Below are positions 15,409 to 38,415 of a stretch of 38,638 nt of DNA, in pieces. The position numbers were made by a program, and so were the translations under genes. The DNA is from a virus. The stretch lies in IMG/VR virus record IMGVR_UViG_3300011113_000425, positions 1-38,638 of that record; one strand, given 5' to 3'. The notes under the pieces were generated by a model. The model searched no databases and was not told where the DNA came from. It worked only from the letters and a program-made list of their open reading frames with translations. The first letter of the stretch is position 1. Every line of letters begins with the position of its first letter.

Positions 15409-16487
15409 AAATATCTTTCAACTTCTGAAAATGTGTGACGCCAATTTTGAGCCCGCCATGTGTCCAATTGATCAAGATAAGTGGTCAGTTTAAACGTGTC
15501 CCCGGACCAAGGATGATCATCAAGCATGAGCGAGATTGAATGCATTCTGCCGTACTTGATTTTAACTAATTCACGAATTCCGGGGGGAGTATGATCAATT
15601 GCCAGCACTCCAATGCAAGGATGTAGATTCAGATCAGTGGCGTCTCCATATCGATTTGTAGAGAAATGTTGGTCAAACCAATCTTGAAATCTATCATAAT
15701 AATAAATGTTCAAAGGATTTAATGTATGTTCAACGCCAAACATAACATTATGCGGCGCTGTGGCCAGAGCTTGTTTGGCAAAGTCCGTACATTTTGTCCA
15801 GGTATGTGGCCATCTCAATAGATCAAATTGAGCGTGGGTACCATCCAGGCTGGCAACCCATTTTACAAGTTTAAATTTTTGCCATTGTTCAAACACCGAT
15901 TGCCGCGGCATGATACTAAAATTAGTGGTATACTGAACTGTGACATTTTGAGGGTTTGAAATTAATTTTAAAATTTCAACATGCATGTTGCTCATCATTG
16001 GTTCGCCACCTCCAAACTTCACGTATTTTAATTGTGACAAATTTTGTTGGGCTAGTATATCAATGAATTTTTTTGTTGTGTCTTTGAGTCTATCCTCACG
16101 ATGTAGATTGTGTATTTGTTCTGAATGATTGACTTGATTTCTTAAATCTTCTTGATACCAAAAACTGCTTTGTCCGGCATCACAACTTGCACAAGCCAAA
16201 TTACATTGTTTGGTTGTTGCCACGGTGAGAATTTCAATTTGTCCTGATAAATTTTCTGACATGTCAAAACTTGCTTGACGATAACTAGGAATACCTTGTC
16301 TTTCTTGATCAATACATGCACGACAAGTCTCTTTGACATCGGACTTGATCCAAAGTTGTCTATAATAATCTACAGAATGTAAATCTGTAAGTGTAGATTT
16401 TTTTGAGTAATAACAACAAGGTGCCACTGTAATTTGTGTAGAATCATTATTGTATACCAGTCCATTGTGTAAGAATTTACAGAACAT
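15405..16487 (-). CDS. Radical SAM protein with twitch/SPASM-type cysteines, cargo gene
   Basis: A 360-residue protein. The radical SAM motif is C95-x3-C99-x2-C102 (KQCNLACASCD), with GGGEP further on (YVKFGGGEPMM). Before it lie APC24-C25 and C55-x2-C58, the arrangement seen in phage twitch-domain radical SAM proteins, suggesting an auxiliary cluster. It would cleave SAM to a 5'-deoxyadenosyl radical; the substrate is unknown, though related enzymes modify peptides. The gene begins one base within the helicase stop (TAATG) and ends overlapping its partner, so it rides on helicase transcription. It is A+T-rich next to gp41 and gp61. It is the clearest Fe-S client of the phage IscU/IscA in this window. 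Confidence 0.85.
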   Translation of the reverse strand: MFCKFLHNGLVYNNDSTQITVAPCCYYSKKSTLTDLHSVDYYRQLWIKSDVKETCRACIDQERQGIPSYRQASFDMSENLSGQIEILTVATTKQCNLACASCDAGQSSFWYQEDLRNQVNHSEQIHNLHREDRLKDTTKKFIDILAQQNLSQLKYVKFGGGEPMMSNMHVEILKLISNPQNVTVQYTTNFSIMPRQSVFEQWQKFKLVKWVASLDGTHAQFDLLRWPHTWTKCTDFAKQALATAPHNVMFGVEHTLNPLNIYYYDRFQDWFDQHFSTNRYGDATDLNLHPCIGVLAIDHTPPGIRELVKIKYGRMHSISLMLDDHPWSGDTFKLTTYLDQLDTWRAQNWRHTFSEVERYF

Positions 16488-20479: not shown

Positions 20480-21043
20480 ATTCATGTGCAAGGCCACCAG
20501 GGCTGCGTAAGAAATCGCATGGCTACGCTTGAACACAAATCCACGACTGGCATCGCCGTCCCACACAGATTGAAACACAGTTTCCCAAGGTTGATTTTGC
20601 AAATGTGCCTTGCCTGGACGTATGATTGAAATAAAGGCAGCCATTCTGGGTATTGAATCAGGCCGCATGCTGTTTAACAGTTCTTTGTAATTGCCTATGT
20701 GTGCTAACTGCTGTGCCCAGTCTGGATCTGTCCATAATCGGGTCCATGGCGGATCTTGTGTCAATGCTTGTTGATATTGTTCTGGGCTGGTAATCAACTG
20801 ATACACACTCATATTCAATAAATCTATTTTAAAATAACCCAAGGCTTCTGCAGTTTCATAGTCTATGGCAGCACACTTATTCACGGGATCATAAGGTATA
20901 CCGGTAACATATACACCAGAGTTGTGCTTGCGAACTTGATCTTGTTGCATTTGTCTTGCCGGAATAGCAGAGATCAATGCCAAGACTTGATCTCTGTTGG
21001 CTAGATCAATGTCAATGTCAGCTTGTAATTTTTTCAAGTTCAT
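20459..21043 (-). CDS. DNA polymerase III alpha (DnaE)-like fragment protein
   Basis: A 194-residue protein resembling a short piece of bacterial DnaE/PolC: it has IDIDLANRDQ near the start, an AIDYETAEALGYFKIDLLNM strand like the DnaE palm-edge E-x-L-G-hhKhDhL segment, MAAFISIIRPG and FKRSHAISYAALVALHMNL, the equivalents of DnaE IALIRPG and F-x2-SHxxxYA. No polymerase active-site aspartates of the complete enzyme can be placed in so short a protein. T4-like phages often carry such stand-alone fragments; the role is unknown. The start at 21043 (MNLKKL) is preferred to one seven codons upstream. It overlaps the A+T-rich gene by 26 nt. Confidence 0.65.
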   Translation of the reverse strand: MNLKKLQADIDIDLANRDQVLALISAIPARQMQQDQVRKHNSGVYVTGIPYDPVNKCAAIDYETAEALGYFKIDLLNMSVYQLITSPEQYQQALTQDPPWTRLWTDPDWAQQLAHIGNYKELLNSMRPDSIPRMAAFISIIRPGKAHLQNQPWETVFQSVWDGDASRGFVFKRSHAISYAALVALHMNLINSTN

Positions 21044-21998
21044 AAATTTCAGCACTGTTAACAAACCAAGTTTTCAATGGTAATTCTTTGTTCAGCGCCA
21101 ATTCTAACTTGGCACTAACATAACTTTCTTGGAACAAATCTAGTTTGGGCAAATCAAATATCTCCTTAGACTCTAGTCTTTTCAACAGCCCGTCGCAGAA
21201 TTTTTTAGAATTTTTATAGGGTTGTTTACTTAGAAATTGTACATGAAGATCCTGCAACTGGTCAATCGATGACAACTTAAATTCAGTCCACTTGCTGAGT
21301 TTTTCTATTTCATGTAAAAAATTTTTTGTATCGTAAAAACAACTGTAGGGAAACACATGTACCTGATTGCTGGAATCATACTGCATACGATTTTGTTCGG
21401 TCATGAATCCAGATTGAGCAGGATATTTAAATCCCAGTTTAAAAAACTCTCTGAGAATATACCGTGGGCAGTTGGGTTGATGTTCAAAAAGTTCTAGCAG
21501 TTCCAAATTGTGTTGATTTGAACATTCATCCTGAATCCACTGGGGCAAGGCCCGGTATTGATCTAAAGTAAATATTTCTGGCCAGCTTGGATCTTTGACC
21601 ACATTGTAACTGTTTTGAATTTGGTTATCAAAGAAGTTTTGAATTAAATTTTCAAGCACCCAGGCGTAATTAGGATTGTTAAATTTGTTATAGGTATTTA
21701 TTTCGAGGGTGTCGTTGTCTATGTCCAGATCGCCTGCACGTAGAAGACTTATGGATGCCAACGGCAATAAATCGTCTGTGGTAATCTGTATACTGATAAC
21801 CTTGCTTTTTTTTATTTCAATATCTTTTTGAAAAAAATGATTACTAACAAAAGTTGTCTGGCCTCGATAGTTTTTTTTATGTGATGCGCCCATACTATTA
21901 AATGGTGTGTCTGGTCCAGGAACATTGGCTAAAAATTTATTGCACACAAATTCTAAAAAATTACCATGTGACCCAGCTATAAAATCAATGTAGATCAT
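21018..21998 (-). CDS. A+T-rich cargo protein, possible nucleotide-binding fold
   Basis: A 326-residue protein. A longer open frame exists upstream, but the ATG at 21998 is preferred because it forms TGATG with the stop of the upstream gene and gives a natural MIYIDFIAGSHGNFLEF start, a strand-loop-helix that could bind a phosphate. Residues near 125-160 hold DPSWP-x10-LPQWIQDE-x4-HN, the same pattern as in the methyltransferase at 1606-2625. The rest is helical with many aromatic residues. Base composition is much richer in A+T than neighbours. I cannot name the family; a sulfotransferase-like fold is one guess. It sits among conserved phage genes as if inserted. Confidence 0.55.
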   Translation of the reverse strand: MIYIDFIAGSHGNFLEFVCNKFLANVPGPDTPFNSMGASHKKNYRGQTTFVSNHFFQKDIEIKKSKVISIQITTDDLLPLASISLLRAGDLDIDNDTLEINTYNKFNNPNYAWVLENLIQNFFDNQIQNSYNVVKDPSWPEIFTLDQYRALPQWIQDECSNQHNLELLELFEHQPNCPRYILREFFKLGFKYPAQSGFMTEQNRMQYDSSNQVHVFPYSCFYDTKNFLHEIEKLSKWTEFKLSSIDQLQDLHVQFLSKQPYKNSKKFCDGLLKRLESKEIFDLPKLDLFQESYVSAKLELALNKELPLKTWFVNSAEIYELEKITS

Positions 21999-22672
21999 CA
22001 CCAACCTGCTTTCTGTAACATTTCTTTGACATATTCTTGATCGGCTATGTAATCGGCAAACTTTTTCATCCATATATCCGAATCAATGTAGGGCCAGACC
22101 ATGGCTATTTGTGTGGCGTCTAATTCTGATAAAAACTTTTGCCCGTTTTTACAATTATAAATGACCCAAGGACTGATGCGTCCGGCGGTCACAGCATAGA
22201 CCATGGCATTAGTGTTGCCATAACGCAGGCAATCCTCGGCTGGATTGCCAGTCTCCTCACTCCAGTCTATTGAAAACTCCATGGCACGAGCCAGGGCATC
22301 GTTGACATTTTCTACACGCAAATAGTCTATTAGGTATTCGGTATAGACAGTATCTCGACACCAGTGATCAATCTTTTTGTTTTGACGTAATACCCATTCT
22401 ACAAAACGTGCTGGATTAACTGCACGAATATCTACACAGTAGCGACCAAATTTTACAAAGGCACGATAGTAGGGGCTTTCACAAAAGTCATCATGTGTTT
22501 TTAATCGTGCGCTGCCTTGCGTGAGTTCATAAAATTTAAGGTAGGCCATGAAACCAAGACGCACTCCGGGTTCATCTCGTTCCTGTCGACGGCGTCGTGG
22601 TTCGCAAGAATGTACTGCAAGACTGGCTTCTCTCACAAAGTTTTTGCGACAATACTGACAAGTATAGGTCAT
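21998..22672 (-). CDS. Conserved phage protein with N-terminal zinc finger
   Basis: A 224-residue protein. The first 22 residues form a C2HC-type finger: C5-x2-C8, H21 and C23 region (CQYCRKNFVREASLAVHSC). A conserved helical body follows (GFMAYLKFYELTQGS, SPYYRAFVKFGRYCVDI, IDHWCRDTVYTEYLIDYL). I recall a family with this finger and FxxYLxFYxxTxG in T4-like aquatic phages next to the gene upstream here; function unknown, nucleic-acid binding is likely from the finger. It overlaps the preceding gene by 4 nt and couples to the cargo gene by TGATG. Confidence 0.65.
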   Translation of the reverse strand: MTYTCQYCRKNFVREASLAVHSCEPRRRRQERDEPGVRLGFMAYLKFYELTQGSARLKTHDDFCESPYYRAFVKFGRYCVDIRAVNPARFVEWVLRQNKKIDHWCRDTVYTEYLIDYLRVENVNDALARAMEFSIDWSEETGNPAEDCLRYGNTNAMVYAVTAGRISPWVIYNCKNGQKFLSELDATQIAMVWPYIDSDIWMKKFADYIADQEYVKEMLQKAGW

Positions 22673-26640: not shown

Positions 26641-27141
26641 TTATTCTAGTCCTGCCTGCACAGAGACTTGGCAAGACAAAGTTGAACTAGCGGGTACAAT
26701 AAACCACCATGTGCCGGCTGGGTCTGTTTTGGGATCCGGAATTGATTGTGTGATACCATTTATTGACACTTCACTACGTTCATCATTGGCCTGATACGAG
26801 CTGATGCTAACAAAGCCATTGGACCCACTACTGATGTAAGTAATTACATTACCTGCCGTATTTGCTAAATTTCCATAATTTGCCATGATGTCACCTAGCA
26901 ACACAGTATTATTTTCCACACTGGTAGTCATGCTGAAATTGCCCGTTGCATCCATGGGTATTTCAAAGGTAAAGAGCACCCCTGGAGTAACATCTGACAG
27001 CGGGGTTGTTGGGGTTGGCGCTGGAGTATTTTGTGTGGGCACTGTGCCGGAAAAAATCTGATTTCCACTCCAGGTAGCAGTCATGCTGGTCGGACTGGAC
27101 CCGTATGCTACTCCTAAAATTTGTACTGTTCGATTGGTCAT
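26641..27141 (-). CDS. Putative virion protein, beta-rich
   Basis: A 166-residue Thr/Ser/Asn-rich protein with little charge: MTNRTVQILGVAYGSSPTS, a proline/threonine-rich stretch (APTPTTPLSDVTPG), then strands (VLFTFEIPMDATGNFSM, FVSISSYQANDERSEVSING, WWFIVPASSTLSCQVSVQA). It has no catalytic motif. Like the gene at 11219 it is a single unit with a late-type box GATAAATAAC, a good TAGGAG site and a terminator, suggesting a high-copy structural or adhesin protein. It borders the glycan module. Confidence 0.65.
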   Translation of the reverse strand: MTNRTVQILGVAYGSSPTSMTATWSGNQIFSGTVPTQNTPAPTPTTPLSDVTPGVLFTFEIPMDATGNFSMTTSVENNTVLLGDIMANYGNLANTAGNVITYISSGSNGFVSISSYQANDERSEVSINGITQSIPDPKTDPAGTWWFIVPASSTLSCQVSVQAGLE

Positions 27142-27158: not shown

Positions 27159-27170
27159 GTTATTTATCAC
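27159..27170 (-). promoter_or_regulatory. Late-type promoter box
   Basis: GTGATAAATAAC on the minus strand overlaps the stop codon of the upstream glycosyltransferase and lies 19 nt before the ATG at 27141, with TAGGAG in the leader. Confidence 0.5.
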
Positions 27171-27901
27171 GTCCAGTGTGTTATGATGACTGGATCCTGT
27201 ATATCAGCAGGTTTTGGTTGCCCGTGAAAAACTAGCACGCTGTTTCGGTGATTTAATTGTGTTCCTGTGCCAGGTGTTTTATAGCATTTTCTGCTAAAAT
27301 TGTAGCCACCATCTTTGCACTGCCAGCGCCAGCTGACCACCTGCTCTACATCAAACAAGCGCCGATCTGACTCTGCAACGGCATTGGATATGTAGTCTTG
27401 GTCGCCATGATTTCTGCTCATGACTCTGCGCAGATCTTCACGCTGAAAAGCTGACCATACAGATTCAAACTGCCGGGTGTTCCACCACATGATGCTACTG
27501 TTAACTCTGTAGTCGTGCGGCCGCCATAGATATTTGAAATCACGTACGGCCCAGAAATATCTCAAGGGTTGTTGCCAAATCCAGTCTATGTTGCCGACTA
27601 TGACGGTGTCCAGATCAAAATACAACAAAGGTCCAGCATGGTGTTCGGGATTGAACAACTGCATTTTATACCACCAGGACCGACGTGGCCCTCTGATACT
27701 CCAGTCCGTGAGAGCATGCTTGATCATGGGTGCAGGCACTGGTCTATCGGCTTCGGTATACACATGCAGTCTTATGCCCGGAGTGATATGGCGGCTCAGC
27801 ATGTTGTACAGGCGTTCCACATAAGTCCACCCGTAGGCATCGCCGTGGATCACACAGGCGCAGTCTATAGGGCCAGGTGGGGAAGTAGGCGTTGTAACCA
27901 T
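27167..27901 (-). CDS. Glycosyltransferase, GT-A fold (GT8-like)
   Basis: A 244-residue protein. A nucleotide-sugar-binding N-terminus (CACVIHGDAYGWTYVERLYN) leads to PLLYFD96-L-D98TVIVGNID, the metal-binding DxD of GT-A enzymes, then an acceptor region with SSIMWWNTRQF and the late NHGDQDYIS block typical for GT8-like enzymes. A C-terminal VLVFHGQPKP strand supplies the usual histidine. Rich in tryptophan. It overlaps the gene upstream by 37 nt and has AAAGGA before its ATG. It would transfer a sugar inside the phage glycan module. Confidence 0.8.
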   Translation of the reverse strand: MVTTPTSPPGPIDCACVIHGDAYGWTYVERLYNMLSRHITPGIRLHVYTEADRPVPAPMIKHALTDWSIRGPRRSWWYKMQLFNPEHHAGPLLYFDLDTVIVGNIDWIWQQPLRYFWAVRDFKYLWRPHDYRVNSSIMWWNTRQFESVWSAFQREDLRRVMSRNHGDQDYISNAVAESDRRLFDVEQVVSWRWQCKDGGYNFSRKCYKTPGTGTQLNHRNSVLVFHGQPKPADIQDPVIITHWT

Positions 27902-28719
27902 AGTCCTTTCTGGATTTCTTCTACTGTGTATTCGGTATGACAGATTTCAACCAACCATTGATCTCTATCTGCTATGTAAGGTTGGTCAATGTCGTGTAAA
28001 TCTATGCCGACAGGATAAGCCAGGCTAGATTTATCTACTATGGGTCTAGTTCCTGCAAGTGCGGCCTGTATGCCTGTACCAGAATTATGGTTGATGATGG
28101 CATGGCAATCAAAGGCCAGGTTGTAGCTGTCATAGGTATTGGCAATTTTTTGTGGTTGTTCTATGACCACATCCGGAGGTAAATGAACCAGGCCGGCCCA
28201 GTCCAACGGACTTCTAGGATGTGGACGTACCACGATGGGACGGTCTGTGACCGTGCGTAGTTGTTCTACCTGTTGGATGACCCAACCTTCCATGCTAACC
28301 AAGCCTACCACCTGCAGACTGCGGGCATGTTGGGCGGCGATCACGATCCTGGGATTCCGGCTTAGATTGATGGCCAGGCTTATGCCCAGGCGTCTAGGGC
28401 GATCCCAATCAAGATTTTCTGTGTGTCCATAATAACCCGTGGACGTGATTGAGTTCAAGGCTACCTTCCAAGTTTCTCCACGATACAAGGCACCCACATC
28501 TATGACAATGACCGGACGCCCTAGACTTCTATAATGGCTCCAGACTGCCTGATTGGCGGCCATGCGTCCTGACCACAACACCGACCATATGATCACAGCA
28601 TCGGCATCCCAGTTGTTTTCCACTGTTTGGTGTCCGTGTTTGTTCAAGCTGGACAACACAGCAGACATCACGGGCTTGCTGTTTTGAGCACACTGATTTG
28701 GAAAGTAGGCCACACGCAT
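27865..28719 (-). CDS. Capsule-type glycosyltransferase-like protein
   Basis: A 284-residue protein. The second half has LRTVTDRPIVVRPHPRSP, a phosphate-gripping HP segment, then HAIINHNSGTGIQAALAGTRP and DRDQWLVEICHTEYTVEEIQKG. The same order of blocks (T/HTDRPI/V, an N-S-x-A/G-x2-A helix before G-x-P, then QW/MKW-hA-x2-Q/E-h-hxEI) recurs in the proteins at 34214 and 35139, so the three are paralogues resembling GT-B or CDP-glycerol/capsule synthases. The first residues (RVAYFPNQ) are a Rossmann-type strand. It diverges from the plus-strand operon over a palindromic promoter 3 nt away and has no Shine-Dalgarno. Confidence 0.65.
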   Translation of the reverse strand: MRVAYFPNQCAQNSKPVMSAVLSSLNKHGHQTVENNWDADAVIIWSVLWSGRMAANQAVWSHYRSLGRPVIVIDVGALYRGETWKVALNSITSTGYYGHTENLDWDRPRRLGISLAINLSRNPRIVIAAQHARSLQVVGLVSMEGWVIQQVEQLRTVTDRPIVVRPHPRSPLDWAGLVHLPPDVVIEQPQKIANTYDSYNLAFDCHAIINHNSGTGIQAALAGTRPIVDKSSLAYPVGIDLHDIDQPYIADRDQWLVEICHTEYTVEEIQKGLWLQRLLPHLAL

Positions 28720-28721
28720 AA

Positions 28722-28737
28722 GGTTAAATATTTAACC
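28722..28737. promoter_or_regulatory. Perfect 16-bp palindromic divergent promoter
   Basis: GGTTAAATATTTAACC is its own reverse complement and reads TTAAATA on both strands. It lies between two divergent ATGs (28719 minus, 28738 plus), 9 and 7 nt from the respective boxes. It can drive both operons and leaves almost no leader on either side. Confidence 0.65.
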
Positions 28738-29529
28738 ATGCAACTACCTCCCATTCAAGGAAAGCTCACCCAATCTGGATTCTTTGTGTACGCAGCCGCT
28801 GATCGTGTGTATTTTGACACCCATGCAAAGCCGTTGATCAACAGCGTGTTGCAGAATTCTCCTGGCATGGGCGTGCATGTTCATGTTTATGATCCTTGTG
28901 AAGATCAACTGGAGTTTTGTCGACAACGACCTGGTGTAAGTGTAACCTGGGAAACTACCAATCCAGTGGAATTTGAGCAGGCGGCCAAGGAGTGGCAAAC
29001 CCGCACTGATTTTGCCAATGATCGTCAACGGCAAATGTATAAAAAAGGTCGGACAGGAGGACGCAATGAACTGCATCGCTTGATCCGACAAACCTACTAT
29101 GCCTGCATGAGATTTGCAAGATTGGCTGAAATTTTAAAACCAGGTCAACGTTGTTTGGAAATTGATGTTGATGGGTTGGTTCGGGCACCATTTAACACTG
29201 ATCTAGGCACAGCTGACTTTTATTTGTATGAAAAACCCAAAGATGGCACACACCTGGCCGGTGCTATATTGTTCAATGGACAGCCAGGCAGTGACGTATT
29301 CTTGCAGGCCTACGGTCAAGCCATGCGAGAAAACATTGAACGCAATGATATCTACTGGTTCCTAGACCAGGTAGTACTAGATCAACTGGTACCCAAGTAC
29401 CGCAAAGGACTCCTGCCCATGAGTTATATTGACTGGGCCATGCGGCCCGAAAGTGCCATATGGTCGGCCAAGGGTAAACGCAAAGAATTAGAAATATTCA
29501 AACAGGAACAAGATAGGTATAGACAATGA
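28738..29529 (+). CDS. Glycosyltransferase, GT-A type
   Basis: A 263-residue protein from the ATG at 28738 (MQLPPIQGKL); an open frame extends 37 codons upstream but crosses the promoter and the opposite gene, so that start is rejected. GFFVYAAADRVYFDTHAKPL resembles the first strand of GT8-like enzymes; CLEID143-V-D145GLVRAPF is the DxD site; ILFNGQPGSDVFLQAY and WFLDQVVLD form the later acceptor blocks. It is the first gene of a seven-gene operon and ends in ATGA overlap with the next. No Shine-Dalgarno is present. Confidence 0.78.
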   Translation: MQLPPIQGKLTQSGFFVYAAADRVYFDTHAKPLINSVLQNSPGMGVHVHVYDPCEDQLEFCRQRPGVSVTWETTNPVEFEQAAKEWQTRTDFANDRQRQMYKKGRTGGRNELHRLIRQTYYACMRFARLAEILKPGQRCLEIDVDGLVRAPFNTDLGTADFYLYEKPKDGTHLAGAILFNGQPGSDVFLQAYGQAMRENIERNDIYWFLDQVVLDQLVPKYRKGLLPMSYIDWAMRPESAIWSAKGKRKELEIFKQEQDRYRQ

Positions 29530-30128
29530 CTATACTGTATGAAAAAGATTGGATTCGTGAAGAATGGTTCACAACAGAATATCAAGCACACAAACGTGAA
29601 AATTTTGAACTGGTAGATGCATATTTGCCGTGGGCACCAAACACCATACTAGACATAGGATGTGGCCTAGCCTGGGAAAGCAGATATTTCAATCAGAAAC
29701 ATGGTAGCATGTTGCACTTGTTGGATGGCGACTACGACGACAATGCCCAAGATGGTCGTGTACAAAAACAAGCACGCTACAGCGAAACAGCGGAAGATTT
29801 TGCGTTCTACTACAAATTAGATTTTCTACGCCAACAACTAGACCAACTGGACACACAGAACTACACGCTCATAGACTGCAATAGAATCAATCTACCAGAC
29901 GATGTCAAGTTTGACTTGATCACAAGTTGGGTCAGTTGTGGATTCCACTATCCTGCATCAACCTATCGAGATCTCATACTCAAGCACAGCCATCCTGGTA
30001 CCACAGTGGTCATGGACCTTAGGATACCGGCCAAGCAACAGAATCCTATCGTGGAACCTGGTGTGGAGATTGTAAAGGTCATTAATCGTCGCCGTAAGTA
30101 TGCCACCTGCCATGTAAGGTTTGTATGA
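29526..30128 (+). CDS. SAM-dependent methyltransferase
   Basis: A 200-residue class I methyltransferase: motif I I41-L-D-I-G-C-G-L-A-W50, an acidic strand end near LLDGDYDD, and motif IV-like FDLITSWVSCGFHYP. A C-terminal beta strand pair (GVEIVKVINRRRKYATCHV) closes the fold. Position between glycosyltransferases suggests it methylates a sugar or an amide of the glycan; the acceptor is unknown. ATGA overlaps on both sides show coupled translation. Confidence 0.75.
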   Translation: MTILYEKDWIREEWFTTEYQAHKRENFELVDAYLPWAPNTILDIGCGLAWESRYFNQKHGSMLHLLDGDYDDNAQDGRVQKQARYSETAEDFAFYYKLDFLRQQLDQLDTQNYTLIDCNRINLPDDVKFDLITSWVSCGFHYPASTYRDLILKHSHPGTTVVMDLRIPAKQQNPIVEPGVEIVKVINRRRKYATCHVRFV

Positions 30129-30883
30129 TCAGCATTGTAATGAGCTACTACAATCGACTGTCACAGTTGCGTTACACTCTGCAGACCGTGAGCCGCAGCC
30201 AGATCAAAGACATAGAAATTGTCATAGTGGATGATTTTAGTGCTCCAGAAGAACGTCCAGATTGTTTGGCACAAGAATTTCCAGGTCTAAATATACAAAT
30301 AATACACATGCAAGACCAGGTTGCCAAAAAAAACTATTGCAATCCTTGTGTGCCTTACAACGTGGGCTTGCGTGCCAGTCGAGGTGACAAGATTGTTATA
30401 CAGAATCCCGAATGTTGTCACATAGGTGATGTGTTAAGCCACGTTGATCAAAATTTGTCAGTGGGCACTTATTTAACATTTCACTGTTGGAGCTGTGTCA
30501 AACACGAAACACTTATACTGCAAGAAACCGATCACTTGGATTTGGTACCAACCAAAAAGAGTCGCTGGTACAATCATGAGACAGAAAGACCCGTGGCCTT
30601 TCATTTCTGCAACGCTATCACACGAGAAGATTTAATCCGCATCAATGGGTTTGATGAACGTTATGCTCTGGGCCATAATTGGGACGATGCCGAGATACTG
30701 TATCGCATACAACAGATATGCCAAACTCGTTTCGTGGCAGACCCATATGTGATACATCAGTATCATCACAAGAGCTATGGACACCCGGACAATATACCAC
30801 CATCGCAGAACAATCGAGACTTGTATTTTGAACTAACTGTGCCTGGATCTGTACGAGCACCCAATCAGGAAAGCATACAATGA
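30125..30883 (+). CDS. Glycosyltransferase family 2
   Basis: A 252-residue GT-A enzyme. N-terminal ISIVMSYYNRLSQLRYTL and EIVIVD36-D37FSA are the standard GT2 start; CVPYNVGLRASRGDKIVIQN is the donor-binding helix and strand; GFDERYALGHNWDDAEILYRI carries the catalytic-region acid (the ED-type motif) at about 200. A membrane segment is absent, so it is soluble. It has the usual ATGA coupling to both neighbours. Likely transfers one sugar in the glycan built by the operon. Confidence 0.85.
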   Translation: MISIVMSYYNRLSQLRYTLQTVSRSQIKDIEIVIVDDFSAPEERPDCLAQEFPGLNIQIIHMQDQVAKKNYCNPCVPYNVGLRASRGDKIVIQNPECCHIGDVLSHVDQNLSVGTYLTFHCWSCVKHETLILQETDHLDLVPTKKSRWYNHETERPVAFHFCNAITREDLIRINGFDERYALGHNWDDAEILYRIQQICQTRFVADPYVIHQYHHKSYGHPDNIPPSQNNRDLYFELTVPGSVRAPNQESIQ

Positions 30884-31407
30884 AACACACAGTCAAAGGC
30901 CGGCGGGCCAGCACCAATGATGCCTTGGTAGACTACCTAAGACGCACCCTACAAGCTGGCACCAGCTTGCTGGATCTGGGGTGCGGGCCCAAACTTTATA
31001 GCAATGCCTTGCGAGATCTGTGTGATCCTGTGTTGACTGTTGATGCATGGTCGTGGGTTGAACCCGATGTGTTGGCTGATCTAGAAAATACCAGTTTGCA
31101 TGAAATCACTGACCAATCTTGGGATTACATACTCATGCTGGATTTCATTGAGCATTTGGACAAGGCCGCTGGCCTTAGATTGATCCAAGAGGCCAAAAGC
31201 ATTGCACAACGTGGTATTGTGTTGCTTACTCCTATGGAAAGCATATGGACCGACAATCACGAACATGTGGATGATCCTCGACTGTGGAGCCATGGCAACA
31301 GCTATGATCTGCACAAGAGCCTATGGCATCCAGGCGACTTTGAAGGCTGGCAACGGATTGTGTTGCCCAAGCTGGACAACTATTTTGTAGGATATTATGC
31401 GCCGTAA
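30880..31407 (+). CDS. Small SAM-dependent methyltransferase
   Basis: A 175-residue class I fold: S29-L-L-D-L-G-C-G-P37 motif I, VLTVDAWSW for motif II, ILMLDFIEHLDK as motif IV and RGIVLLTPMESIW as motif V. The C-terminus (LWHPGDFEGW) may contact the acceptor. Probably sugar or nucleotide-sugar methylation, given the operon. Overlaps the epimerase gene by 11 nt. Confidence 0.75.
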   Translation: MKHTVKGRRASTNDALVDYLRRTLQAGTSLLDLGCGPKLYSNALRDLCDPVLTVDAWSWVEPDVLADLENTSLHEITDQSWDYILMLDFIEHLDKAAGLRLIQEAKSIAQRGIVLLTPMESIWTDNHEHVDDPRLWSHGNSYDLHKSLWHPGDFEGWQRIVLPKLDNYFVGYYAP

Positions 31408-32461
31408 GATATTGACCATATTGGGCACACGTCCTGAAATCATAAGACTCAGCAGGATCGTTCCACAGTTGGATCAACTTTGTGATCATCGTGTGTTGCA
31501 CACCGGACAAAACTATGATTCAACTCTGAATGAAATATTTTTTAGAGATCTTGGCCTAAGACCTCCGGACCACGTGTTACAAAGTCGTGGATCTTTGGCC
31601 GAACAGTTGTCAGCAACCTTTGTGGGAGTAGAACGTTACCTACAAGAATTCAATCCAGACGCAATACTAGTGTTGGGAGATACCAATTCAGGTCTGTCAG
31701 CTGTAATTTGTGAACGCCTAGGATATCCAGTGTTTCACATGGAAGCCGGTAATCGTTGCTACGATCTTTCAGTGCCCGAAGAAAAAAATCGCAGAATAAT
31801 TGATCATGTCAGCACCTTTAATCTTCCTTACACAGAATTCAGTAGACAAAACTTATTAAGAGAAGGAATCGCAAATAATCGTATAATATGCACAGGCAAT
31901 CCTATTCGTGAAGTGTTGGACTTTTACAGTGGTCAGATACAACATTCCAACATATTGGATCGACTGAATTTGACGCCCGGGCAATATGTGGTTGCCACTG
32001 CACATCGTGCGGAGAATGTGGACAATCCAGAACGATTAGAAAACATTGTCTCGGCCTTGGAACACATTGCCAATGACATGACCGTGGTGTTTAGTTGTCA
32101 TCCACGAACTCGACAACAACTGACGCGATCACTGAGTGATAGAATAAAGGTGTTGGAACCGCAGGGTTTTTTTGACTGGGCCAAATTAGAACGTAACAGC
32201 CGCATGGCCATAACTGATTCGGGCACGGTGCAAGAAGAAATGTGCTTGTTTCACAAACCAACCATAACTACAAGGCAAACCACAGAAAGACCTGAAACTG
32301 TGCATTGTGGCAGTAATATTGTTGCTGGCGTTGACAAAAAACGTATCATAGATTGTTATCAACAAGCCTTGAACATGCGTGATTGGCAAGTTCCTGCAGA
32401 ATACACTCACAGCTCGGTCAGCACGGTTGTGGTCAATATTTTAATGGGAAACTATGTTTGA
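31397..32461 (+). CDS. UDP-N-acetylglucosamine 2-epimerase-type enzyme (WecB/MnaA family)
   Basis: A 354-residue enzyme with the WecB/NeuC signature: LGTRPEIIRLSRIV at the start, HTGQNYD, VLGDTNSGLS, VFHMEAGNRCYD, PEEKNRRIIDHVS, TAHRAENVDNPERL and ITDSGTVQEEM. It inverts C2 of a UDP-2-acetamido sugar by anti elimination and re-addition of UDP. Next to a CapE-type dehydratase and an RmlD-type reductase it most likely acts like WbvD/WbjD/CapG on a UDP-L-hexosamine rather than on UDP-GlcNAc itself. It overlaps the next gene by 8 nt. Confidence 0.9.
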   Translation: MRRKILTILGTRPEIIRLSRIVPQLDQLCDHRVLHTGQNYDSTLNEIFFRDLGLRPPDHVLQSRGSLAEQLSATFVGVERYLQEFNPDAILVLGDTNSGLSAVICERLGYPVFHMEAGNRCYDLSVPEEKNRRIIDHVSTFNLPYTEFSRQNLLREGIANNRIICTGNPIREVLDFYSGQIQHSNILDRLNLTPGQYVVATAHRAENVDNPERLENIVSALEHIANDMTVVFSCHPRTRQQLTRSLSDRIKVLEPQGFFDWAKLERNSRMAITDSGTVQEEMCLFHKPTITTRQTTERPETVHCGSNIVAGVDKKRIIDCYQQALNMRDWQVPAEYTHSSVSTVVVNILMGNYV

Positions 32462-33434
32462 CAATCAACGCATATTAATCACTGGCGGTACCGGAAGTTG
32501 GGGACAAACTCTAACTCGTATGTTGCTGTCTCAGTATAGTGTAAAAGAAATTGTCATATTCAGTCGCGGTGAATTACAACAGGTTCTCATGCAACGACGC
32601 TTCAAGGATGCCAGACTGAAATTTGTGATTGGTGATGTACGTGACTACGAATCTGTGCGTTTTGTCATGCGTGACATTGATATTGTGTTTCATTTAGCTG
32701 CACTAAAACACGTGCCCATCTGTGAAGATCATCCGCAAGAAGCCATCAAGACAAATATCACAGGCACTACCAACATTGTCAATGCCGCAATAGAAAATCA
32801 TGTTGCCAAAGTAATTGATGTCAGCACAGACAAAGCAGTTGAGCCGTTGAACTTGTATGGCATGACCAAGAGTGTGGGTGAAAAATTAATCATCCAGGGC
32901 AATGATCTAAGTTCACACACAAAGTTTGTTTGCATTCGTGGAGGCAATGTCATGGGCTCCAACGGCAGTGTAATTCCATATTTCATTGAGCAGATCAAAG
33001 CCGGCGGTCCTATTACCATCACTGATTTAGAAATGACTCGTTTCTTCTTGACCCTGGAAGAAGCCATATTGTTGTTGTTCAAGGCCGCGGAAGCCAGCAT
33101 TGGTGGTGAAACATTTGTCATGAACATGCCAGCTTGTCGCATCCGTGATGTGGCCGGTGTGCTCATGGATCAATACGGCTGTGTGGACATTAAAGAAATT
33201 GGCAGCAAACCCGGAGAAAAACTAGACGAGATGTTGATCAGCAAACACGAAGCCTTGCTGAGTCGTTGCTTTGATGAAAATTACTATGTGATACTTCCTA
33301 CCAAATGTTCTCAGGAACTCGAAGACAACTACAAACAGTTGCCAGCGTTCCCTCATCCAGAGTTTAGTTCACGCACGGTGTTAATGGATCGTGAACAAAT
33401 CAAAGCCATGTTGACCAAAGGTGGATTTTTATGA
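32454..33434 (+). CDS. UDP-GlcNAc 4,6-dehydratase/5-epimerase (CapE/WbjB type)
   Basis: A 326-residue SDR enzyme. The NAD(P)-binding loop is G11-G-T-G-S-W-G17, the catalytic set includes STDKAV near 124-129 and Y135-G-M-T-K139, with HLAALKHVPICE typical of the FlaA1/PseB/CapE group. It makes UDP-4-keto-6-deoxy sugar from UDP-GlcNAc, as the first step to L-FucNAc or L-QuiNAc. The absence of membrane helices separates it from PglF-like forms. ATGA coupling to the reductase. Confidence 0.9.
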   Translation: MFDNQRILITGGTGSWGQTLTRMLLSQYSVKEIVIFSRGELQQVLMQRRFKDARLKFVIGDVRDYESVRFVMRDIDIVFHLAALKHVPICEDHPQEAIKTNITGTTNIVNAAIENHVAKVIDVSTDKAVEPLNLYGMTKSVGEKLIIQGNDLSSHTKFVCIRGGNVMGSNGSVIPYFIEQIKAGGPITITDLEMTRFFLTLEEAILLLFKAAEASIGGETFVMNMPACRIRDVAGVLMDQYGCVDIKEIGSKPGEKLDEMLISKHEALLSRCFDENYYVILPTKCSQELEDNYKQLPAFPHPEFSSRTVLMDREQIKAMLTKGGFL

Positions 33435-34261
33435 GAATAACAGTGCTAGGTGCCAACGGCATGGCCGGTCATGTTGTGACCAGCTATCTCTCTCAGCAAG
33501 GACACAAAGTTGATGCTGTGGATAGAACCAGATTGGATGTTGAAAATCCTGTTTCAGTCATGGCATTTTTTGATCAACTCGACACAGACTTTGTCGTAAA
33601 CTGCATTGGCTTGTTGGTTCAACCTTGCATACAACGCCCAGACCGTGCCAGTGTGATCAATTCCTGGTTCCCACACTACATCGAATATTGTCTAAAAGAC
33701 TCTGCCACTCGGTTGATTCATCTAAGCACCGACTGTGTGTTTGACGGCACCAAAGGTCATTATGTGGAAACCGATGCTCACACAGAATCCAATGCTTATG
33801 GCCGTAGTAAAAGTCTAGGCGAGGTCAACAATGCCAAAGATATCACTTTCCGTATGAGCATCATTGGGCCTGAACTTAAGAATGGCACTGGCTTGCTAGA
33901 CTGGGTTAGAAAAAATCCTGAACAAGCAATACCAGGTTGGGACAATGCTTGGTGGAATGGTATTACCACATTGCAGTTGGCCAAATGCATTGATCGTTAT
34001 GTACGCAACCCCTGTGTCACTGGCATATATCATGTGGTCAACAACAGTGTAAACATCAACAAATACCAGTTGTTGTATTTGATCAATGAAGTTTATGATC
34101 TTGGCAAGACTGTGGTCAGAACCAGTGGTCCCAAAGATGTAAACAAGATATTGGTTGACACCAGAAAAGAATTTGATTTTGCTATTCCAGACTACCGCAC
34201 TCAGTTGACTGAGTTAAGAGACTTTGACCCAGTTACGCATGTGAGCCCAGCAACGACCTGA
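33431..34261 (+). CDS. RmlD-type nucleotide-sugar 4-reductase
   Basis: A 276-residue SDR protein: G7-A-N-G-M-A-G13 binds NAD(P)H, LSTDCVFDGTKGHY and N121-A-Y123-G-R-S-K127 are the RmlD catalytic blocks. It lacks the extra C-terminal cupin of CapF/WbjC (about 370 residues), so it looks more like WbvR, giving UDP-L-RhaNAc that the 2-epimerase turns into UDP-L-QuiNAc. That product is inference. Its last 48 nt overlap, tail to tail, the final codons of the opposite gene. Confidence 0.85.
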   Translation: MRITVLGANGMAGHVVTSYLSQQGHKVDAVDRTRLDVENPVSVMAFFDQLDTDFVVNCIGLLVQPCIQRPDRASVINSWFPHYIEYCLKDSATRLIHLSTDCVFDGTKGHYVETDAHTESNAYGRSKSLGEVNNAKDITFRMSIIGPELKNGTGLLDWVRKNPEQAIPGWDNAWWNGITTLQLAKCIDRYVRNPCVTGIYHVVNNSVNINKYQLLYLINEVYDLGKTVVRTSGPKDVNKILVDTRKEFDFAIPDYRTQLTELRDFDPVTHVSPATT

Positions 34262-35167
34262 TCTAAGATCTTCAAAGCTCCAGTGGCACTGAGCTATTTT
34301 TCTAATCCATTGCTCGCGATCTGGCATTGAAGGATTTTCTAACAAACTAAAATCTGTGTTGGCAATGTTGCCGCCTTGACTATAACCAGGGTCATCGGTG
34401 ATAAAAGCCGGTATGCCTTCTATGGGTGCCACTGCACTTGGAGTTGAATTATGACATACTAGGGCCCAACAGTTGACTAAATCTTGTGTGATATGTCGTT
34501 CCTGTGGACTCAGTGTTACATTGTATCGTCGGAAGTTTTCATCCTTGGGAAAGTTTTTCCAATCACCAGGATGCCAACGAAGGATAACAGGACGATCTGT
34601 GTGTTGGCGTATCTTGGTCAACGTAGTCTCGCACCACTGCATCAAGTTCTGTCCTCGCATGCTCCAACCCATGGGTCTTTGCATGCAAACAAGAATGTGT
34701 GATCCTTGTGTGCGCCATGGTTTGAGATCCATGTTGTAATCTCTGCGTATGTTGGCCCAGTTTTCTTCGCCGGGCGTTTCGTTGCAGTAGATACCAGTGG
34801 CAGGAAAAACTCCATTGAAACTGTACCGTAGATATTTTTTTGGATTGGTGCGATCGCGATAGATAAAAACATTTGAATCAACACTGAGCCAATACCGACC
34901 CAGTTGTTGTTGTGTGTCCATGACCATTTTGCGAACCTTGTAGTGCGGCAGATTGATCTTGCCAGGATTGGCATCAAAGGCATTGCCTATTATGGCACCA
35001 ACATCACAGTCTTCGTAGGTCTGGCTTTTTGTTACTTCAGCATGATCACCACAACGTGCGGCGCCTTCGGCAAAATAAGTCAGGGCATTGATCTTTTCTT
35101 CGCCGTTGATCCTGGCAGGCAAACTGCTGAGATAGCTTTTAATACGCAAAGGTTGGCCGTTGTTCAT
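34214..35167 (-). CDS. Capsule-type glycosyltransferase-like protein (paralogue)
   Basis: A 317-residue protein from the ATG at 35167 (MNNGQPLRI); 23 further codons upstream are open but lie inside the upstream gene. Its second half has IRQHTDRPVILRWHPGDWKN, NCWALVCHNSTPSAVAPIEGIPAF and DREQWIRKIAQCHWSFEDLRSGR, the same block order as its neighbours at 35139 and 27865. It therefore belongs to the same paralogous family, probably GT-B-like capsule or teichoic-type transferases. The gene ends inside the opposite reductase gene, sharing 48 nt in opposite frames. Confidence 0.65.
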   Translation of the reverse strand: MNNGQPLRIKSYLSSLPARINGEEKINALTYFAEGAARCGDHAEVTKSQTYEDCDVGAIIGNAFDANPGKINLPHYKVRKMVMDTQQQLGRYWLSVDSNVFIYRDRTNPKKYLRYSFNGVFPATGIYCNETPGEENWANIRRDYNMDLKPWRTQGSHILVCMQRPMGWSMRGQNLMQWCETTLTKIRQHTDRPVILRWHPGDWKNFPKDENFRRYNVTLSPQERHITQDLVNCWALVCHNSTPSAVAPIEGIPAFITDDPGYSQGGNIANTDFSLLENPSMPDREQWIRKIAQCHWSFEDLRSGRCWAHMRNWVKVS

Positions 35168-36197
35168 TTTCTTGCACCATGTTCCAGGCTTGACCTCGAA
35201 TGATTTCGTCAATGCTAAACTGTCCATAGGCCACACTGGCCAGCCACTTCATTACAATATCTTCGTGTGGCTTGTGAGGATTTTCTATCTGGGACAGGTC
35301 AGCACTGGCCACTGGTGCGGCAGCTGTGGGTGCCAAGGCAAATGCTGGAACACCCGACTGTATGGCTTCAATGGCTGCGATGCTGTTGAAAGTTACCAAG
35401 GCCCAAACATCGTCGTTTAAAGCGTCATAGATATTGTCGGTGGTAGTTCTTTCGGCACGACCTGACTTTTCACGGATAACAATAGGACGATCGGTGTGTG
35501 CCCTGATAGTAGCAATGGTATTTTTAACCCATTGTTCCTTGCTACAACCATAAAATTCAAAAGGCTTTTCAGTGTTCATTATCAACAAGATATTTTTGCC
35601 TGGTCGGCGCCATCCGCGGTAGGTTAATGCAGGGTTGAACTTGCACAGAGACTCCCAACGATCATAGGGCACGTCCAAAAATCTGCGTTGTTGCATGGCA
35701 TTCTTTTCAATCCTGTGATAAATTTTCCTGCCGGTTTCATTGTTGGCACTGCGATAATTGCCTAGATATCCAGTTTCCATGAAATAATAATCCCGCCCGT
35801 TTTCTTCGGCATGTTTAATCGATTGTCCGGCACTGATTCCTCGAACTAAAATAGGATCTGTGATAGAATCCTTGGCACGTTTGTAGTCATAGCCAGTCAT
35901 GAAACGACTTTCTGGATAGGAGGCCATGACCATGGCCGGATAGTCGCTGAATTTGGTCAGCCTGAAATAACGTTCCTCTTTTTCTCTTAGTATAGCATCA
36001 AAGTTTTTGTCTACTCTTTTTTGTTCTTTGGAATCTACTTCGGGTTGCATGCGGTGTAACTTGCGTAGTTGCTCTAGTTCCTGCAGACATTTAAAAGCAT
36101 CAGCTACACTGTGCTTGAGAGCACTGATTTGATCGGTGTGCTGTAGTCGATATTCTTCCATGGGCCAGCGTTCGACCACGGCTAATGGTAAAGTCAT
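35139..36197 (-). CDS. Capsule-type glycosyltransferase-like protein (paralogue)
   Basis: A 352-residue protein. The ATG at 36197 is chosen because it makes an ATGA overlap with the upstream stop and has AAAGGA before it. A helical, charged N-terminal third (about 25-80, LQHTDQISALKHSVADAFKC) may be a coiled coil. The later part has IRAHTDRPIVIREKSGRAER, DDVWALVTFNSIAAIEAIQS and VMKWLASVAYGQFSIDEIIRG, matching its two paralogues. Paralogues back to back suggest separate linkages in one glycan. It overlaps the next gene by 29 nt. Confidence 0.65.
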   Translation of the reverse strand: MTLPLAVVERWPMEEYRLQHTDQISALKHSVADAFKCLQELEQLRKLHRMQPEVDSKEQKRVDKNFDAILREKEERYFRLTKFSDYPAMVMASYPESRFMTGYDYKRAKDSITDPILVRGISAGQSIKHAEENGRDYYFMETGYLGNYRSANNETGRKIYHRIEKNAMQQRRFLDVPYDRWESLCKFNPALTYRGWRRPGKNILLIMNTEKPFEFYGCSKEQWVKNTIATIRAHTDRPIVIREKSGRAERTTTDNIYDALNDDVWALVTFNSIAAIEAIQSGVPAFALAPTAAAPVASADLSQIENPHKPHEDIVMKWLASVAYGQFSIDEIIRGQAWNMVQENEQRPTFAY

Positions 36198-36877
36198 TGT
36201 GTCCTTTGTTGGCAGTATTCTGTGAGTATGCGTTCGCCGTGCCACTCTTCACTTTGCGGAGTGTCGGCAAATTCTGTGAAACACGGAGTTCCTAGTGTGT
36301 AATGTAAAAGTTTTGCACTGTCATTGGCACCAAACTCATCTGGTAACCAGTTCCATTCTATGGGCAATTCTCCAATTCGTTCATCATCCAGCCAACTAAA
36401 TCTGTGTAGGTAGCTGCCCGGTTGGCTCTGCACAAACGCCGGAGTGAGTTTTCTGTTGGGCCAACTTGAGCAGTTCCACAGGATCACACTTGACCAATTT
36501 TTTCTGGGATAATTTTCGTTTTTGGCACCCATGTATTTTTCTGTCATGCGTGTTTGATAATCATGTTTGACCACCATGACATCAACGTGGCTTTCCTGCA
36601 TATTCCATAATTTTACAATGTCGTCACGCAAGACCATGTCGCCGTCGATGAATATAGCCCATCCTTGGTAACCCATGAGATGTGGCACAAGAAATCTAGT
36701 GTACACAAAATGATTAGAATTGTCACCGTGGGTTTCTTCGTAGTCCTGGAACAGATTTAATGCTACTGGCACAATGGCCACAGGTTGGCTGGCATGCCGG
36801 ATAATGCTGTTCACACAAACGTGATATGCTATAGATTCTCTAGGATCGTAGCCGATAAAAATTGGAATTGGTGTCAT
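36194..36877 (-). CDS. Glycosyltransferase, GT8-like
   Basis: A 227-residue GT-A protein. MTPIPIFIGYDPRESIAYHV is the first strand and a donor-binding loop typical of GT8-like proteins; AIFID78-G-D80MVLRDDI is the DxD; SSVILWNCSSWPNRKLTP, LHRFSWLDDERIGELPIEWN and HYTLGTPCF are later conserved blocks. The start at 36877 overlaps the upstream stop (ATGA); a longer frame is rejected. Belongs to the minus-strand glycan operon. Confidence 0.82.
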   Translation of the reverse strand: MTPIPIFIGYDPRESIAYHVCVNSIIRHASQPVAIVPVALNLFQDYEETHGDNSNHFVYTRFLVPHLMGYQGWAIFIDGDMVLRDDIVKLWNMQESHVDVMVVKHDYQTRMTEKYMGAKNENYPRKNWSSVILWNCSSWPNRKLTPAFVQSQPGSYLHRFSWLDDERIGELPIEWNWLPDEFGANDSAKLLHYTLGTPCFTEFADTPQSEEWHGERILTEYCQQRTQ

Positions 36878-37629
36878 TGGCGTTGTATGTCCTCTTCCAC
36901 GCATTGTTCACCATACTGTATTTCTACCACACGCAGAGGTTGATCAGTTTGGTTGCACAGTTGATGCCATTCGTGTTGATCTATATGTATGTGTTGGTGA
37001 GTTCCAAATTCTCCCATGAGTTCAGCGTCACTTTTGCGATTGATAGTGTAAACTGTGGCAACACCTTCTGCCACATGCCAGTGCTCGGCACGATCATGGT
37101 GACGTTGCATGCTGAGACTTTGACCCGGCATGACTGTGAGTTCTTTGACCTTGGTGCCAGGTACTTCATGTAACACACGATAGTAGCCCCAGGCACGCTC
37201 GGTTTTAGGAGATTTCCACTCTTCCAAGATCCATGAGCTGGAATTGGCTTTGTCCTCTCCGCCTACACCAAACACAAATTCCACATTCTGCACTGTCATT
37301 TCTGGTATGTTATTCTGGGTTCGATCACCACCATTGGCGAATATGATACGTGCCTCAGGATAATGTGCGCGAACCTGTTGTAACAGATGACAGGCAGTTC
37401 CATCCTCATCGTCAAAGGTATAAACCTCGTCCACGCTGGCCAAGTTGTTTAACACACACAGGCGTTCTTGCCAGGGCATGAATGCACGACCTTTTTTACG
37501 GGCCAGCCATTCGTCGCTGTTGATGCCCACAATCAGGTAATCACCTAGAGTTCGTGCTTTGTTGATTAGTTTTATGTGTCCTGAGTGTATGGGATCAAAC
37601 CCACCTGATACAACCACAATAGTATTCAT
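36874..37629 (-). CDS. Fusion: cytidylyltransferase domain plus mannose-isomerase-type cupin
   Basis: A 251-residue two-domain protein. Residues 1-125 are a nucleotidyltransferase of the RfaE/TagD type: VVVSGGFDPIH15-S-G-H18 catalytic site, IVGINSDEW and FANGGDRT near 97-104. Residues 142-251 form a cupin like the C-terminus of ManC/AlgA (type II phosphomannose isomerase): RAWGYYRVL, KELTVMPGQSLSMQRHHDRA, EHWHVAEG, then VVEIQYGE-x4-EDI. In usual bacterial proteins these domains are not joined. Together they could activate a sugar phosphate and isomerise or bind one. A late-type box ends 5 nt before the ATG, so the mRNA is probably leaderless. Confidence 0.82.
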   Translation of the reverse strand: MNTIVVVSGGFDPIHSGHIKLINKARTLGDYLIVGINSDEWLARKKGRAFMPWQERLCVLNNLASVDEVYTFDDEDGTACHLLQQVRAHYPEARIIFANGGDRTQNNIPEMTVQNVEFVFGVGGEDKANSSSWILEEWKSPKTERAWGYYRVLHEVPGTKVKELTVMPGQSLSMQRHHDRAEHWHVAEGVATVYTINRKSDAELMGEFGTHQHIHIDQHEWHQLCNQTDQPLRVVEIQYGEQCVEEDIQRQ

Positions 37630-37633
37630 GCGG

Positions 37634-37642
37634 GTATTTATC
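37634..37642 (-). promoter_or_regulatory. Late-type promoter box abutting start codon
   Basis: GATAAATAC on the minus strand; the box ends 5 nt before the ATG at 37629, with no Shine-Dalgarno between. Confidence 0.55.
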
Positions 37643-37659
37643 TACACATATAATGAGCA

Positions 37660-38415
37660 CTAAAGTTGTGCCATGGACATGAGGCTCTTGTCTATCCATG
37701 GCAGAATCAAATCGTGTTGCCGCAAGTGGCCATGCGCATAGATGCTTTGATCTGCCGATTCAGGCAGCAGTTCCAGTGCAGACAAATCATGCCAGGTAGT
37801 TGTTTTGGGATCCTGTGGCGCATGCGAGCTTTTGTACACTATGGCATGGATCCAGGGATCAGCATGCATCTGCCGGAAAAAACCTGCTCGGCAATCCCAT
37901 CCGGCCATGGCCAGCATGTGCATGAGACTGACCATGGTGTGATGATACAAGCATCCAGTGTTCAAATAATAAGCCAACTGCCCGCGATGAGTCAGCACAG
38001 TCTGTGGCACACTGATGGCCAGCATGCCACCCTCACTGGCAATGTGCCACCAACTGCTGAGAGTTTGCAAGGGATTCACACAGTATTGAAAGGCGTCGTG
38101 GCACCACAGGATATCAAACCCTTTCTTGGGTGCATGTATCTTGCCTTCAAAATCTGTGCGCTGATAGGTGATGTTGGCATATCGTTTGGCCACAGGCAAG
38201 TTTTCCGCTATGTCTATGCCCTGGCACTGTATGTTCAACGGTTCTGGATTATCATCTCTGGTGGTACGACTAGCCCACCACTCTAAATCTTCGCCGGTAC
38301 CGCACCCCAAGTCTGCCACCGTGACAATACTTTCCATGAAATCGTCGTATTCATACAAGGCATTCAACACCTGCAGACTGTGGCGATGGCTGTCACCTGG
38401 ATGGACGAATTTCAT
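37660..38415 (-). CDS. SAM-dependent methyltransferase
   Basis: A 251-residue class I methyltransferase. The ATG at 38415 (MKFVHPGDSH) overlaps the upstream stop as ATGA; 31 codons more are open upstream but lie within the preceding gene. Motif I is A34-D-L-G-C-G-T-G41, motif II an acidic IDIAE strand, motif IV FDILWCHDAFQYCVNP and motif V GGMLAISVP. The C-terminal part has RAGFFRQMHADPWIHAIVYK. The acceptor is unknown; the neighbours suggest glycan chemistry. Confidence 0.78.
   Translation of the reverse strand: MKFVHPGDSHRHSLQVLNALYEYDDFMESIVTVADLGCGTGEDLEWWASRTTRDDNPEPLNIQCQGIDIAENLPVAKRYANITYQRTDFEGKIHAPKKGFDILWCHDAFQYCVNPLQTLSSWWHIASEGGMLAISVPQTVLTHRGQLAYYLNTGCLYHHTMVSLMHMLAMAGWDCRAGFFRQMHADPWIHAIVYKSSHAPQDPKTTTWHDLSALELLPESADQSIYAHGHLRQHDLILPWIDKSLMSMAQL

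Follow-up and report, generated by a model that had tools for sequence, protein, structure and literature searches.

A polymorphic glycan locus with T4-type late promoters in uncultivated jumbo phages: a candidate virion-glycosylation system

Many phages have 'LPS-like' (lipopolysaccharide-like) gene clusters with an unresolved target, which may be the host surface, DNA or the virion. In the giant virus Megavirus, Mg534 and Mg535 have been shown to make uridine diphosphate (UDP)-N-acetyl-L-rhamnosamine (UDP-L-RhaNAc), Mg536 is predicted to serve UDP-N-acetyl-L-quinovosamine (UDP-L-QuiNAc), and the virion fibrils carry L-RhaNAc, 4-O-methyl-L-RhaNAc and L-QuiNAc (PMC9614988, PMC10117803). The FnlA-QnlA-QnlB enzymes are assigned to UDP-L-QuiNAc in bacterial O-antigen loci (PMC6467956), and experiments have placed glycans on the capsid and tail-tube subunits of mycobacteriophage virions (Freeman et al. 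2023, as cited in PMC12619734). Here we describe a glycan locus at positions 27167-38415 of the IMG/VR record IMGVR_UViG_3300011113_000425, a contig of 38,638 nucleotides that was analyzed in full and is referred to below as the window. We suggest, with moderate confidence, that it is a polymorphic, late, cytoplasmic virion-glycosylation locus.

Fixed flanks and an exchangeable interior

The window is an entire contig and a fragment of a genome, with genes for ribonucleotide reductase, a DnaB-type helicase, a primase and UvsW aboard; the glycan locus is set among replication genes, with UvsX to one side and UvsW to the other. A contig of 337,119 bases (G001) begins with 38 kb that are colinear with the window, with protein identity of up to about 98%, and we take G001 to be a complete genome because it bears a 127-bp terminal direct repeat. 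On the strength of this colinearity, we assign the source phage to an uncultivated lineage of T4-type jumbo phages. The features of the locus, with glycosyltransferases abbreviated as GT, methyltransferases as MT and the ratio of non-synonymous to synonymous polymorphism as pN/pS, are as follows.

27167-27901, minus strand: GT-A type glycosyltransferase (phrog_1962; GT1962), second in the left operon; PHROG E 4e-24, DLD motif invariant in 11 sequences
27865-28719, minus strand: GT-B-like transferase, paralogue 1 (GT-B1), head of the left operon; hhalign against paralogue 2, E 9e-40; late motif in 25/44 relatives
28722-28737, unstranded: putative divergent late promoter of T4 type in the gap that separates the left and rightward operons, palindrome GGTTAAATATTTAACC; identical palindrome in 10 other related loci
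28738-29529, plus strand: GT-A type transferase (GTA) without a Pfam or PHROG match, first in the rightward operon; D143/D145 conserved without exception in 16 sequences; late motif in 16/17
29526-30128, plus strand: methyltransferase MT1; weak Methyltransf_23 match, E 0.002; pN/pS about 0.2
30125-30883, plus strand: GT2 glycosyltransferase; PF00535 above cut-off
30880-31407, plus strand: methyltransferase MT2; PF13489 above cut-off
31397-32461, plus strand: non-hydrolysing 2-epimerase of CapG/FnlC/QnlB type, proposed to epimerise UDP-L-RhaNAc at C-2; PF02350 E 4e-87
32454-33434, plus strand: FnlA/PseB-type dehydratase; PF02719 E 4e-93; matches to PDB 2gn4 and 4j2o, CapE and Megavirus Mg534 (4tqg)
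33431-34261, plus strand: RmlD-type 4-reductase of QnlA/WbvR/Mg535-like size, no CapF cupin; RmlD match, STD and YxxxK invariant
34214-35167, minus strand: GT-B-like transferase, paralogue 2, KpsC/WbbB-like fold; AlphaFold predicted local distance difference test (pLDDT) 91; best Foldseek match KpsC, E 4e-6, template-modelling (TM) score about 0.5
35139-36197, minus strand: GT-B-like transferase, paralogue 3; hhalign against paralogue 2, E 8e-34
36194-36877, minus strand: GT8-like glycosyltransferase; PF01501 above cut-off, DGD invariant, pN/pS 0.075-0.13
36874-37629, minus strand: first gene of the right operon, a fusion of an RfaE-II-like nucleotidyltransferase with a cupin resembling type II phosphomannose isomerase; PF01467, PF01050; late motif in 48/50 relatives
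37627-37642, minus strand: putative late promoter of T4 type, GATAAATACCCGCATG, extending to the start codon of the fusion gene
37660-38415, minus strand: methyltransferase MT3, probably in the upstream replication operon; PF13847 and others; late motif in 0/38 relatives; present where all transferases are missing

These fourteen genes, with their places and strands, had been listed in an earlier sequence-only reading of the window, and the open reading frame (ORF) listing and the Pfam, PHROGs and NCBIfam scans agree with it. They likewise bear out its seven transferase-like genes (four of GT-A type and three GT-B paralogues, the latter its capsule-type family), its 2-epimerase, dehydratase and RmlD-type reductase, and its phage-type promoters, T4-type late cores lying at 28722-28737 and near 37640. 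The left operon runs from 27865-28719 into 27167-27901; divergent from it, the rightward operon (28738 to 34261) reads GTA, MT1, GT2, MT2, 2-epimerase, dehydratase, reductase. The right operon, read leftward, comprises the nucleotidyltransferase-cupin, GT8, GT-B 3 and GT-B 2, the last of which shares positions 34214-34261 with the final gene of the rightward operon. A DxD motif is invariant among relatives of the three GT-A genes other than GT2. All module genes have homologues in uncultivated phages, for the most part in matching order, and purifying selection acts on them (pN/pS 0.075-0.32 against closest relatives); together these findings show that they are no chance ORFs.

Comparison with relatives revealed a locus that is fixed at its edges and variable within. 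The reductase occurs in 50 viral loci at 59-89% identity, most of them with the dehydratase and a shared order. The 80 loci fetched by means of the AAA gene share, where long enough, one frame: MT3, nucleotidyltransferase-cupin, GT8, a variable interior, GT-B1, GT1962, a variable protein, AAA and UvsW. Even in G001, whose AAA protein is 94% identical, a single ORF of 238 amino acids replaces the six genes from MT1 to the reductase. Alternative interiors hold GT25, GT2 or Caps_synth-like transferases, FkbM-type methyltransferases, and a guanosine diphosphate (GDP)-mannose dehydratase or UDP-glucose dehydrogenase, and reduced loci keep MT3 with the nucleotidyltransferase-cupin only, or MT3 alone. 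Dozens of phages thus share the fixed flanks of a locus whose interior is polymorphic and exchangeable. Four loci (L078, L081, L102 and L110) are of the minimal kind, with MT3 and the nucleotidyltransferase-cupin, no transferase nearby and the late motif kept. Tentatively, this arrangement may be the phage counterpart of the bacterial capsule (K) locus, specifying a per-strain virion 'serotype', here a methylated L-QuiNAc glycan; this would be a first for bacteriophages and convergent with amoebal giant viruses.

A predicted L-QuiNAc pathway and its transferases

The three nucleotide-sugar enzymes point to a definite sugar. The dehydratase carries STDK and YxxxK motifs and matches PseB, FnlA and CapE at about 236-260 bits versus 148 for Megavirus Mg534, a difference that suggests it was probably acquired independently of Megavirus. 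For the 2-epimerase, the closest solved structure is CapG (315 bits, versus 146 for WecB). The reductase, at 276 amino acids, is close in length to Mg535 (270; PMC10117803); it matches RmlD only, lacks a C-terminal cupin and has no match to NF047837, the cupin-containing FnlB/CapF/WbcJ family. UDP-N-acetyl-L-fucosamine (UDP-L-FucNAc), the FnlABC/CapEFG product, was considered and rejected, since this CapF-type reductase signature is missing. In nearly all of 80 bacterial or archaeal loci, the reductase adjoins FnlA and/or the 2-epimerase. Taken together, the CapG-type epimerase, the dehydratase of FnlA/PseB type and the RmlD-type reductase, which has no CapF cupin, lead us to assign these genes to an FnlA-QnlA-QnlB set. 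Such a set is predicted to yield UDP-L-RhaNAc first and UDP-L-QuiNAc from it; we infer this product from enzyme families and gene context. Three relatives (G006, G007 and G008) have the dehydratase and reductase and no 2-epimerase family match, and are therefore predicted to stop at L-RhaNAc. In a quick tree, in which bacterial sampling was limited to dehydratases beside this reductase, phage dehydratases form one group with support 100, which suggests that the FnlA block is a long-term resident.

The modeled fold of paralogue 2 is GT-B, of the type seen in the Kdo transferases KpsC/KpsS/WbbB (about 12% identity), a fold from which the donor is not inferable. The fusion at the head of the right operon is real, though its nucleotidyltransferase domain had been read as a cytidylyltransferase; this domain is closest to heptose-1-phosphate adenylyltransferase (RfaE domain II), at 75.6 bits and so below the family cut-off of 181.5. 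Its cupin part is similar to the isomerase domain found in bifunctional mannose enzymes. Among cultivated phages, no record covers 80% of the fusion protein; stand-alone type II phosphomannose isomerases have been described from cyanophages (PMC9602691).

Late promoters, acceptor and competing explanations

The late genes of S-PM2 use NATAAATA, and TAAATA is the core of the T4/S-PM2 late promoter (PMC2984593). The consensus TATAAATA is not above chance count in the window alone; what is informative is the shorter core, positioned from start codons and compared across relatives. In G001, TAAATA lies within 45 bases upstream of 68/407 ORFs, and occurrences number 26 and 20 in the two bins that span -30 to -11, where about one is expected per 10-nt bin. 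It precedes the tail sheath, portal, baseplate wedge and other virion genes, and is missing from the DNA polymerases and an SbcC-like gene, which are among the largest ORFs. The exceptions are one DNA ligase with the motif and two virion-like genes without it, which may lie inside operons.

Across distinct regions of relatives, TAAATA stands upstream of module operon heads in 89/111 cases (nucleotidyltransferase-cupin 48/50, GTA 16/17, GT-B1 25/44), and before operon-internal module genes 0 times or once. The variable protein at 26641-27141 (30/31) and a virion immunoglobulin (Ig)-like gene (31/31) have it as well. At replication-side genes the count is 3/255 (UvsW 1/75, AAA 0/65, DnaB 0/26, primase 1/27, the phrog_11279 gene 1/62), a contrast with a Fisher p of about 1e-59, the sequences compared being related to each other. 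Since TAAATA marks operon heads in relatives and is scarce at replication genes, the module is probably transcribed late, along with virion genes. In many late genes the motif stands at -10 to -15 from the start codon (with a peak at -10/-11 in 20 G001 ORFs), so that their mRNAs may be leaderless or nearly so; a second group at -23 to -30 leaves space for a leader.

MT3 departs from this pattern. It has no late motif in the relatives, and in the 337-kb relative it overlaps the end of the gene that precedes it (3149-3601), which itself lies downstream of uvsX; MT3 is therefore probably part of that replication operon. All three methyltransferases of the sequence-only reading exist, then, and two of them would belong to the late module.

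That reading had also seen no transporter and proposed attachment in the cytoplasm, and our searches support this. Neither PF01943 (Wzx), PF02397 (PglC/WbaP) nor PF01061 (ABC-2) has a match in nine records (the window, the 337-kb relative with terminal repeats, two relatives above 317 kb at 320 and 317 kb, and five others), and the module intervals of 76 loci contain no multi-span membrane protein. Beyond the window, the large relatives yielded no flippase or polymerase, the latter judged by hydropathy only, and no protein of G001 has at least eight hydrophobic spans. A seven-span protein of G001 was considered as a transporter and rejected as a member of the Bax1-I (BI-1) family; it lies at 47341-48009 (L147:7341-8009), and G006 has a seven-span protein of 228 amino acids with similar hydropathy.

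We propose that the three nucleotide-sugar enzymes, the dehydratase being of the inverting kind, would take UDP-N-acetylglucosamine (UDP-GlcNAc) to UDP-L-RhaNAc and on to UDP-L-QuiNAc, and that soluble GT-A and KpsC-like GT-B transferases would, in the cytoplasm, assemble a short glycan. This glycan, probably O-methylated by MT1 and MT2, would be attached to virion protein before or during assembly, and the exchangeable interior would let related phages display different glycans. Where the sequence-only reading had left the acceptor between virion and DNA, late promoters, the lack of export and DNA-hydroxymethylation genes in relatives and the giant-virus precedent make virion protein the most likely acceptor, in our estimate a moderately probable one. 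Several points weigh against this. The only adjacent virion-like candidate, at 26641-27141, is a single-copy, fast-diverging protein (24-49% identity, pN/pS about 0.5) with its own conserved late promoter and a confident beta-sandwich model that has no significant PDB or viral fold match. It is possibly a virion surface protein, but was rejected as a general acceptor: G001 and the 210-kb G006 have the locus but not this protein, and it also occurs where there are no transferases. Promoter class is sequence-based, and as the window is a fragment, gene absences are established in relatives. Late timing would also suit a late change of the host surface, and lipid-linked or LPS intermediates of the host are within reach of soluble transferases; because the host itself could flip LPS intermediates, a cell-surface target is compatible with the missing transporter.

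The main rival builds on these last points. The enzymes might modify host LPS core or lipid-linked O-antigen at the cytoplasmic membrane face, with host MsbA or Wzx flipping the product, so that superinfection is blocked or receptors are reclaimed from progeny virions. LPS-core transferases are likewise soluble or peripheral, and early LPS steps need only soluble enzymes, the host supplying the flippase. Host-surface change has been proposed for the LPS clusters of cyanophage P-SSM2 (PMC2984593), and bacterial loci for surface polysaccharides typically feature UDP-L-QuiNAc and KpsC-like transferases (PMC6467956). However, no locus examined has an initiating or membrane enzyme, and virion-phase rather than early promoters are late for exclusion, if still compatible with it; we regard this explanation as rather unlikely. 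Less likely again is that the locus is only partly one system, in which an ancient, conserved function is served by the nucleotidyltransferase-cupin, GT8 and GT1962, with the FnlA block as passing cargo that has a separate acceptor. The frame genes do remain where the FnlA block is missing, and the nucleotidyltransferase-cupin remains even without any transferase nearby, yet the block lies inside a late operon headed by GTA and its single, well-supported phage group speaks for long residence.

Glycosylation of phage DNA against restriction, akin to T4 hypermodification, appears very improbable. Its appeal is that the locus is flanked by UvsX and UvsW in a replication region, and that the beta-glucosyltransferase gene of T4 lies near uvsX. 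Against it, the thymidylate-synthase/hydroxymethylase family (PF00303) is found in 0/9 relatives with positive controls, the promoters are late, and GT8, KpsC-like transferases and a rare-sugar pathway differ from known DNA-glucosyltransferase families; a Tet/JBP search gave no match, with its controls silent as well. Virion glycosylation remains the reading that we favor.

Genome context and comparison with known systems

By the AAA gene, the nearest annotated cultivated relatives are Pseudomonas jumbo phages of the PA5oct/Paride group, at merely 39-40%; the window has no DNA match to cultivated phages, and Paride (39%) has no annotated glycan locus adjoining its AAA gene. Elsewhere in the window, nrdA and nrdB, which are neighbors in G001, are separated by a low-GC (guanine-cytosine) gene at 1606-2625; it has a weak Methyltransf_24-like match and is an insertion relative to G001. 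A radical S-adenosylmethionine (radical-SAM) protein gene (15405-16487) and its neighbor (14734-15408) lie in an AT-rich stretch and lack a G001 counterpart at that place; G001 holds only a 26% relative of the radical-SAM protein, at another place. A low-GC ORF of 351 amino acids at 21018-22073 has neither a family match nor a G001 equivalent.

Among described systems, Megavirus chilensis (Mimiviridae) comes close, in that Mg534-Mg539 likewise cluster a dehydratase, an RmlD-type reductase and a 2-epimerase with glycosyltransferases. Its clusters are clade-specific and their product is on virion fibrils (PMC9614988, PMC10117803); they belong to a eukaryotic giant virus and contain other transferases. 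The bacterial FnlA-QnlA-QnlB cassette has the same three enzyme types in adjacent genes, but the O-antigen locus described includes wzx and wzy (PMC6467956), and the phage module has no export gene. Cyanophage P-SSM2 is T4-type, with sugar epimerases, several glycosyltransferases and no export gene annotated in the stretch viewed; it differs in its GDP-mannose dehydratase sugars, has no close FnlA relative (26%) and has been read as modifying the host surface (PMC2984593). As P-SSM2 has 24 such genes (PMC2984593), the unusual complexity that the sequence-only reading saw here holds in a relative sense only. Moraphages, as described in PMC12619734, are aquatic jumbo phages with several conserved core glycosyltransferases of unknown target; we considered them as the lineage of the window, and kinship was not established. 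In mycobacteriophages, according to the same source, virion glycosylation is experimentally demonstrated, while the virion glycan here is predicted.

What is new is the combination of a definite sugar, late-promoter wiring and a fixed frame with a swappable interior in many phages. Promoter class supplies independent evidence toward the virion, and the question of target becomes testable through a definite sugar, L-QuiNAc/L-RhaNAc with possible O-methylation. If virion glycosylation is correct, strain-specific glycans would bear on particle stability, surface adsorption and recognition by hosts or grazers, and would represent a striking convergence of jumbo phages with the giant viruses of amoebae.

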